In this document: piece after piece, positions 39,493 to 41,067 of the stretch
Layout of the letters: every line of letters starts with the position of its first letter
Numbering within the stretch: the stretch's first letter is position 1
NCBI RefSeq assembly: GCF_004114375.1
Contig: NZ_CP034692.1
Coordinates: forward strand, 930,001-994,000
Length of the DNA stretch: 64,000 nucleotides
Source: Halorubrum sp. BOL3-1
Lineage (GTDB): Archaea; Halobacteriota; Halobacteria; Halobacteriales; Haloferacaceae
Direction: 5' to 3'
Translations under genes and position numbers: made by a program
The notes under the pieces: model-generated
Told to the model about the DNA's origin: nothing
Databases searched by the model: none
Seen by the model: the letters and a program-made list of their open reading frames with translations, nothing else

Positions 39493-39576
39493 GGGACCCC
39501 ACCGTGTCCGCATAATTTACAGACCAGAGAATCCGGCAAGCACACAGACAGAGATACCCCACCCTGTCCGCATAAT
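39493..39576. repeat. origin-type repeats, family B, 3' side of third orc
   Basis: Reverse copies at 39493-39517 (core CCCCACCGTGTCCGCATAAT) and 39554-39576 (core CCCCACCCTGTCCGCATAAT). The second ends three bases before the orc stop codon. The unit is unlike family A. Confidence 0.78.
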
Positions 39577-39579
39577 CCC

Positions 39580-40773
39580 CTACGCAGTTATGCGATCCAT
39601 CACGTTACCCAGCCGCTCATTCTCCTGAAGGACGTCAATGGTCATACTGAGATCAGCCCCGAGTTCGAACAGATAGTGCTGTCCGCCCTGGATACCCTCG
39701 TTTCGCTCCATCGCGTTCACGACACCCGCCAGATTGAGATCTTGGAGGTGATCACGAACGCGCCGCATCGCGATCGATTCGGCGCCAATGTGCGTGGTGA
39801 TGTCCGTGTATCTCGCGTACACCTGTTTCGTGCGGGCCGGTGTCTCCCCATCTACTTCCAGAGAAACGATCGCAGTCAACGCGAGATGGTCCTGTGTGGT
39901 CAAATCCCGAATTCCTCGCTCGATGCTCTTGCGCTCGATGACCGCTTCAGCTTCCCGAACATGTTCTTCAGTCACGATTTCGTCGCCGCCGTTCGACGCC
40001 AGTTCACCCGACTTGTACAGATACCGGATCGCCTGTCGTGCTGATCCCTTGTCCTGTGCCGCCATCGCCGCACAGAGAGGGATGACATCTTCCGACAACA
40101 CGTCGTTTTTGAATGCTTTCTCTACACGCCGCGTGAGTATCGAGCGGAGTTCACTTGCATCATACGGAGCAAAGTGGATTTCCTCGTCACACAGAGTGTC
40201 CTTGACCTTTGGGCTCAGATTATCCCGGAACTCGAAGTCATTTGAAATTCCGATGACGGACACCCACATGTCCTCTAAATGGCCGTTAGCACGAGCCCGT
40301 GGCAACTCGTAGAGGATATCATCGTCCGTGCCGATTGAGTCAATCTCGTCGAGGACGATGATCACGGTTCCGCCGAGTGCTTGGAGATTCTCGTAGAGCA
40401 GGTCGAAGACCGTTTTCTTGTCGTAGCCTCGTGGTTTCTCGCCCGATAGCTCTGCGACCAGATTTGAGGCGACCTGATAGCTTGTGTTGTCTTTGGCGCA
40501 CGAATACCGAACGATAGAGAGGTCGATATCGTTGTCTTCGGCGAACGCACGTAGATCCTCTAGCTTGTACGTGACACCAACCGTCTTCCCCTGACCCGTC
40601 TTTCCGTAGACGAACGTGTTGTGTGGAGAAGCGCCTCTCGCTACGGGCGCAAGGGCATCGTGGAGATCATCAAGTTCCGTTTCACGCTCTGGGAGTTCCT
40701 CAGGTGTCCAGGAGTCGTAGAGAACGGTCTCGTCGGCAAAGATGTCCGTCTGATCCGTGAACGACCGCGGCAT
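39580..40773 (-). CDS. orc1/cdc6: Orc1/Cdc6 replication initiator (family-B origin)
   Basis: 397 residues. AAA+ core: Walker A YGKTGQGKTVGV, Walker B VIIVLDEIDSIG, sensor IGISNDFEF; C-terminal winged helix MRRVRDHLQDLNLAGVVNAM then GGQHYLFELG. Clearly a different subfamily from the other two copies (only AAA+ motifs agree closely). It is flanked by family-B repeats, inverted relative to each other across the gene, which implies a separate origin 3 kb from the family-A one. No lesions. Confidence 0.93.
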   Translation of the reverse strand: MPRSFTDQTDIFADETVLYDSWTPEELPERETELDDLHDALAPVARGASPHNTFVYGKTGQGKTVGVTYKLEDLRAFAEDNDIDLSIVRYSCAKDNTSYQVASNLVAELSGEKPRGYDKKTVFDLLYENLQALGGTVIIVLDEIDSIGTDDDILYELPRARANGHLEDMWVSVIGISNDFEFRDNLSPKVKDTLCDEEIHFAPYDASELRSILTRRVEKAFKNDVLSEDVIPLCAAMAAQDKGSARQAIRYLYKSGELASNGGDEIVTEEHVREAEAVIERKSIERGIRDLTTQDHLALTAIVSLEVDGETPARTKQVYARYTDITTHIGAESIAMRRVRDHLQDLNLAGVVNAMERNEGIQGGQHYLFELGADLSMTIDVLQENERLGNVMDRITA

Positions 40774-40931
40774 ATGATGATAATTGTATACTCTACGTAT
40801 AAAACCACCGCGTCCGGAGTGTCTTCATTTATACATGAAAGCAACGACCCTGCTTCATCTATACTGTGATCCCATCGCATTCGCACGATCTATGGGGCTC
40901 TTTACGACACAGTCCACTCCGTTTTTCTGTG

Positions 40932-41067
40932 AATTATGCGGACAGGGTGGGGTCCCAGAGATATTCTGATCGCCTCATTCGGGGGGAGAGAGTCGTTTGA
41001 ATCCTCTTGTGGAACATCAAATGGAGTGGACTCTTTTGAAGCAATTATGCGGACATAGGGGAGTCCC
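40932..41067. repeat. origin-type repeats, family B, 5' side of third orc (putative origin)
   Basis: Forward copies at 40932-40956 (AATTATGCGGACAGGGTGGG then GTCCC) and 41043-41067 (AATTATGCGGACATAGGGGA then GTCCC). About 160 bases separate the first from the start codon, and the spacer contains AT-rich DNA suitable for unwinding. Confidence 0.78.

Follow-up and report, generated by a model that had tools for sequence, protein, structure and literature searches.

The orc1/cdc6 gene at positions 39580–40773 of the window, by which we mean the whole 64,000-nucleotide stretch of DNA that was analyzed, very probably forms, together with the origin recognition boxes (ORBs) that its product is predicted to recognize, a replicator-initiator cassette that is self-contained and spans about 1.55 kb. 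This cassette was very probably acquired horizontally as a unit, and it lies within a variable chromosomal island of nucleotide-sugar genes. It belongs to a published kind, the haloarchaeal ori-cdc6 modules, for which the specificity and turnover of ORBs are known. Two details may be new: the loss of an inward-facing ORB that is kept by both close relatives, and a TATA box that is directly joined to a partial ORB matching the clade of the gene.

The initiator gene and its private boxes

The gene, located on the minus strand, is intact and encodes a protein of 397 amino acids with the Pfam domains Cdc6_lid (3e-25), Cdc6_C (1e-16) and AAA_22, all above the cut-offs, corresponding to the AAA+ ATPase, lid and C-terminal winged helix layout of the Orc1/Cdc6 proteins. 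Near full-length alignments were obtained with phmmer to the crystallized Orc1 proteins from Aeropyrum pernix (2v1u, 1e-65) and Sulfolobus solfataricus (2qby_A, 4e-61). Substitutions inferred for the window lineage were 84 synonymous versus 13 non-synonymous, and the gene is thus under strong purifying selection.

Four boxes of about 25 bp each, ATTATGCGGACANRGKGGRG, surround the gene, as compared to none in shuffled sequences, and are predicted to be ORBs. Repeat detection placed the two downstream copies on the minus strand, at 39493–39517 (outer) and 39553–39577 (inner, 8 bp past the stop codon), of which the inner copy is kept in the closest relatives, G105 and G056, and in relics of the cassette in G229 and G359. 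The two upstream copies are located on the plus strand, at 40932–40956 (position -179 relative to the gene, kept in G105 and G056) and 41043–41067 (position -290, kept in G056). Every G-rich end is directed away from the gene. The locus thereby has four repeated G-string ORBs adjoining the orc gene, as in the haloarchaeal orc/cdc6-adjacent origins, and ORBs downstream of the cdc6 gene, as in the oriC2D type. The opposite orientation of the upstream and downstream pairs, which had been described in the original prediction, was borne out, and so was the claim that the repeats are private to this gene, since the core ATTATGCGGACA was found exactly four times in the entire 3.67 Mb genome, all of them at this locus. 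The further claim that the repeats are unrelated to those of other orc genes holds for the 5' half, which is private, but not for the 3' half (GGACAnRGTGGGG), which resembles the ORBs of several other Orc clades. In a literature search with the box sequence, the five papers listed out of eight were unrelated. Each of the two upstream ORBs has, at a distance of about 10 bp, one arm of a perfect inverted repeat (AGTCCACTCC/GGAGTGGACT, 10 bp per arm, at 40912–40921 and 41024–41033), an arrangement reminiscent of the oriC1 enhancer, which is a G-rich inverted repeat.

The neighboring orc gene at 36079–37290 (minus strand) belongs to another clade and is only 40% identical to the gene at 39580–40773, consistent with the predicted assignment of the latter to a different subfamily. 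It has its own ORB type, with boxes at 36056 (minus strand) and at 37404, 37463 and 37516 (plus strand), which carry AGCACACGAAAT. Three orc loci had been predicted in the window and three are present, but the copy at approximately 10946–12139, which is about 80% identical to the gene at 36079 and still flanked by ORBs, is a pseudogene, interrupted by an in-frame TAA as well as by frameshifts. The boxes at these two loci are of the AGCACACGAAATNNACTCTCTC type, which is absent beside the gene at 39580–40773, and the ATTATGCGGACANRGKGGRG type is absent at both of them, in agreement with the prediction that no boxes are shared. A search for the neighbor-type box in the genus yielded 12 matches in 7 of the 52 genomes (reversed pattern, 0). 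In G008 and G019, these were located on the same contig and within about 0.3 kb of a relative that is 79–90% identical to the product of the gene at 36079, while others were found beside a different Orc clade.

Linkage of boxes and initiators across haloarchaeal genomes

We scanned 392 haloarchaeal genomes of the order with the strict pattern TTATGCGGACRNRGKGGRG and identified 65 matches at 29 places in 28 genomes, as compared to 0 matches for the reversed pattern. An intact orc gene of the 39580–40773 family was present at 17 of the places, accounting for 50 matches, and fragments of such a gene at another four (five matches; G229, G359, G093 and a second place in G056). At six places (eight matches), an Orc from a different clade was found 0.3–2 kb from the boxes, and at two places no Orc was found within about 9 kb (two matches). 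Directly beside the downstream box, the C-terminal 75 residues of the family protein persist in G229 (91% identity) and the C-terminal 26 in G359; the relic in G093 corresponds to the N-terminal part, and the one at the second place in G056 to 43 residues with 93% identity. A further relic in G045, which belongs to the genus of the window, is 80% identical in DNA sequence across the end of the gene and its downstream box. The original prediction had proposed such a search and held that the repeat should occur only beside its own orc subfamily; the strict box adjoins the family or its relics in 55 of the 65 matches, and boxes were not widespread without the matching gene, with the exception of the ten matches near other orc genes or alone. 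Locus L146 of G056 (G056:C2:56500-75500) contains, at 9477–11478, an inverted pair of ORBs of the 39580–40773 family and, after it, an Orc from a different clade and the 43-residue relic, an apparent replacement of the initiator at an origin.

De novo repeat detection at about 55 orc loci showed that each Orc clade has a different box, in which the 5' half is variable and the G-rich 3' half is widely shared. The boxes of one locus occurred at the other in 90–99% of pairs with more than 70% Orc identity, in 61% of pairs at 55–60%, in 15% at 50–55% and in 0–1% below 50%, with too few pairs at 60–70% to be read, while control matches within coding sequences remained steady at 0–5%. On a tree of 49 Orc proteins, the 16 ORB types required 16 changes, as compared to a minimum of 15 and a mean of 30 for shuffled labels; these numbers are descriptive, as the analyst assigned the types once the boxes had been detected de novo, and as relatedness among the sequences makes them non-independent. 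The pairing of initiators and origins, with an ORB type that follows the Orc clade, is thus strongly supported by the sequence comparisons, and the initiator-origin co-evolution suggested in the original prediction agrees with both the cross-occurrence data and the tree. The comparison of cassettes also provides a quantitative view of the Orc divergence that an origin code tolerates: above about 55% Orc identity, boxes are commonly shared, and below 50% this is essentially never the case.

Putative origin architecture and a promoter-fused partial box

Inverted boxes around the least stable DNA are the standard plan of an archaeal origin. The usual layout places the inverted ORBs around an AT-rich stretch upstream of the orc gene, although published exceptions exist. 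Most relatives of the cassette follow this plan, with inverted upstream boxes and the least stable DNA between them. In the window copy, both full upstream ORBs face the same direction, and an inverted arrangement arises only if boxes on either side of the gene, or the partial ORB in the promoter, are counted. The missing partner corresponds to an eroded ORB at 40843–40867 (minus strand, about -95), where the alignment has an intact ATTATGCGGACRGWGTGGGG in G105 and G056 and a degenerate AGTATAGATGAAGCAGGGTC in the window. A candidate unwinding element is the low-stability stretch between the two upstream ORBs at 40988–41048, with a nearest-neighbor energy of -1.29 versus a locus mean of -1.48 and 62% AT; an alternative is the 60 bp segment with the lowest stability on the upstream side of the gene, at 40774–40833 in the promoter (-1.24, 63% AT). 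In Sulfolobus oriC1, mutation of either ORB of the inverted pair abolishes firing (PMC12141716). Because the inward ORB at -95 is eroded, the window origin is expected to be weak, dormant or rearranged, with a working Orc, and since it has no full inverted upstream pair, we refer to the locus as an ori-orc cassette rather than as a proven origin. The cassette and two close relatives differ by one lost ORB and thus offer a natural experiment on the ORB requirements of an archaeal origin.

In the proposed mechanism, the winged helix of the Orc would bind the specific 5' half of the ORBs and the AAA+ part the G-rich 3' half, and the ATP form would recruit MCM to AT-rich DNA flanked by ORBs of opposite orientation. 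The downstream pair would titrate the initiator by binding it. A search for alignment columns that are common to the two clades with the cassette ORB and altered in two derived groups identified five candidate specificity residues in the winged helix (R314, Q344, N358, I361, Q362), but the signal is weak because the same comparison recovered nine further columns in the AAA+ part.

The promoter of the gene contains a partial ORB fused to the TATA box, CCGGACGCGGTGG-TTTTATA, at 40798–40817 (minus strand), which stands at -31 and matches the clade ORB core at 11 of 13 positions; the ORB-derived part includes the CGGACGCGGTGG half. The motif GTRGTTTTATA is common to the promoters of all three orc loci in the window. 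In a scan with clade cores supplied by the analyst, a TATA-fused partial ORB with 5' letters matching the ORB of its own clade was detected at 30 of 37 loci (P<0.05, region shuffles), and at the other seven none of the TATA patterns matched exactly, partly owing to misplaced gene starts. These matches suggest that the Orc may autoregulate its own gene, with binding at the partial ORB lowering orc transcription, in a feedback loop comparable to that of DnaA at dnaA. It is conceivable, if rather tentative, that ori-orc cassettes in general share this feedback, whereby the partial ORB at the TATA box changes along with the ORB of the clade and the initiator shuts off its own gene, which together with the ORB boundaries would make them self-regulating, mutually compatible and portable replicators. 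No description of an ORB overlapping a haloarchaeal orc promoter was found in the literature searched, the coverage of which is incomplete; Orc1-2 of Sulfolobus, a non-initiator paralog, binds its own promoter via a different motif.

Transfer of the cassette and its relation to known systems

The closest relatives of the Orc protein, with 95% (G105) and 94% (G056) identity, are from genomes in other families. Similarity at the DNA level extends over 39480–40956 in G105 (85%) and over 39566–41096 in G056 (82%), with none outside, and thus ends at the outer ORBs or within about 30 bp of them; in many other pairs of related orc genes, it likewise ends around the outermost upstream box. The RpoB domain is only 89.5% (G105) and 90.7% (G056) identical to that of the host, although Orc proteins usually diverge faster than this domain, and horizontal transfer of the gene and its ORBs as a unit, without flanks, is therefore the better reading. 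The confinement of the similarity to these elements suggests that the package travelled alone into the nucleotide-sugar island, although flanks free of selection may decay quickly, which could account in part for homology that ends at the ORBs. A close homolog is the only Orc detected on a 90 kb Natrinema plasmid, which also favors the cassette reading.

The flanks of the cassette consist of nucleotide-sugar genes and remnants, in an island with two copies of a UDP-sugar dehydrogenase gene. The upstream edge adjoins a nucleotide-sugar gene remnant at 41122–41301, and a small-gene remnant at 39366–39486, repeated in many genomes of the genus, ends at the other edge. New haloarchaeal origins in polysaccharide-gene regions are described for Haloarcula (PMC3528665, PMC4441112). 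A clean empty site was not found in the genus search, in which the flanking genes were present in many genomes, but reshuffled. In the window, a block of a nucleotidyltransferase and a UDP-sugar dehydrogenase gene is duplicated at 14872–17126 and 47361–49863; each block shares a stretch with an orc of the 36079 clade, one of which is the pseudogene; this suggests that a segment comprising an orc and the sugar genes was duplicated. An IS605 OrfB/TnpB-type protein is encoded at 20032–21273.

The original prediction had attributed the two origin families to a probable fusion of two replicons or plasmids; in that case, each orc would be the former initiator of a separate, wholly integrated plasmid. 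Two intact orc clades are indeed located 2 kb apart, as they also are close together in Haloquadratum J07HQW2, G105 and G056, and many homologs of the gene reside on plasmids. Fusion is nevertheless not supported and improbable, and the data are better accounted for by a small ori-orc package that moved into a variable island: the DNA in common with the closest relatives is limited to the gene and its ORBs, the flanks are sugar genes, and no partition, Rep or other plasmid backbone genes were recognized among the subset of window ORFs scanned. Furthermore, among 72,556 plasmids there was no near match to 34500–44500 and no match to the two large adjoining ORFs at 30482–34984 (808 and 676 amino acids), which also have no Pfam or PHROG matches. 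Even less probable is a transposable element with the outermost boxes as its ends and the orc gene as cargo. These boxes are outward-facing inverted repeats near which the similarity to the relatives ends, but only the orc gene is found between them, with no transposase, and no target-site duplication was noticed; the boxes vary in number and spacing, occur in relatives also between the outer ones, and follow the Orc clade as expected of initiator sites. We therefore rejected the transposon ends.

A somewhat more serious, though still unlikely, alternative is that the locus is a decaying leftover that no longer fires, with the ORBs as relics and the Orc kept for another reason, for example transcription control. 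The erosion of the inner ORB, the relic copies in G229, G359, G093, G045 and at the second place in G056, and the documented non-functional origins in variable regions of haloarchaeal genomes (PMC4441112) are in line with such decay, while the good conservation of the four remaining ORBs and the strong purifying selection on the gene argue against it.

The cassette is most similar to the haloarchaeal orc/cdc6-adjacent origins (PMC3528665), which have clade-specific G-string ORBs in the flanking intergenic regions, sometimes on both sides, with several families per genome and turnover in variable polysaccharide-gene regions; it differs in that the window copy has no complete inverted upstream pair, and the text consulted does not describe its ORB family explicitly. 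It resembles oriC2-cdc6E-oriC2D of Haloarcula hispanica in having ORBs on both sides of the cdc6 gene (PMC3936714). There, the initiator is specific for its own origin and oriC2D is a Cdc6-titrating region (PMC3936714), and the cassette initiator is predicted to have the same specificity for its own ORBs. The cassette has two downstream ORBs, which may titrate the initiator, as compared to 11 in oriC2D. Like the dormant oriC4-cdc6H of Haloferax mediterranei (PMC4595724), it is an ori-cdc6 pair acquired by a chromosome that also has other origins, but the dormant origins of that species have intact inverted ORBs and are activatable, whereas the inner ORB of the cassette is eroded. With Sulfolobus oriC1/Orc1-1 (PMC12141716; PDB 2qby), it shares the initiator domains and the ORB logic, and its relatives share the inverted ORBs around an AT-rich stretch, whereas the ORB sequence of the cassette is different and the window copy has no inward ORB.
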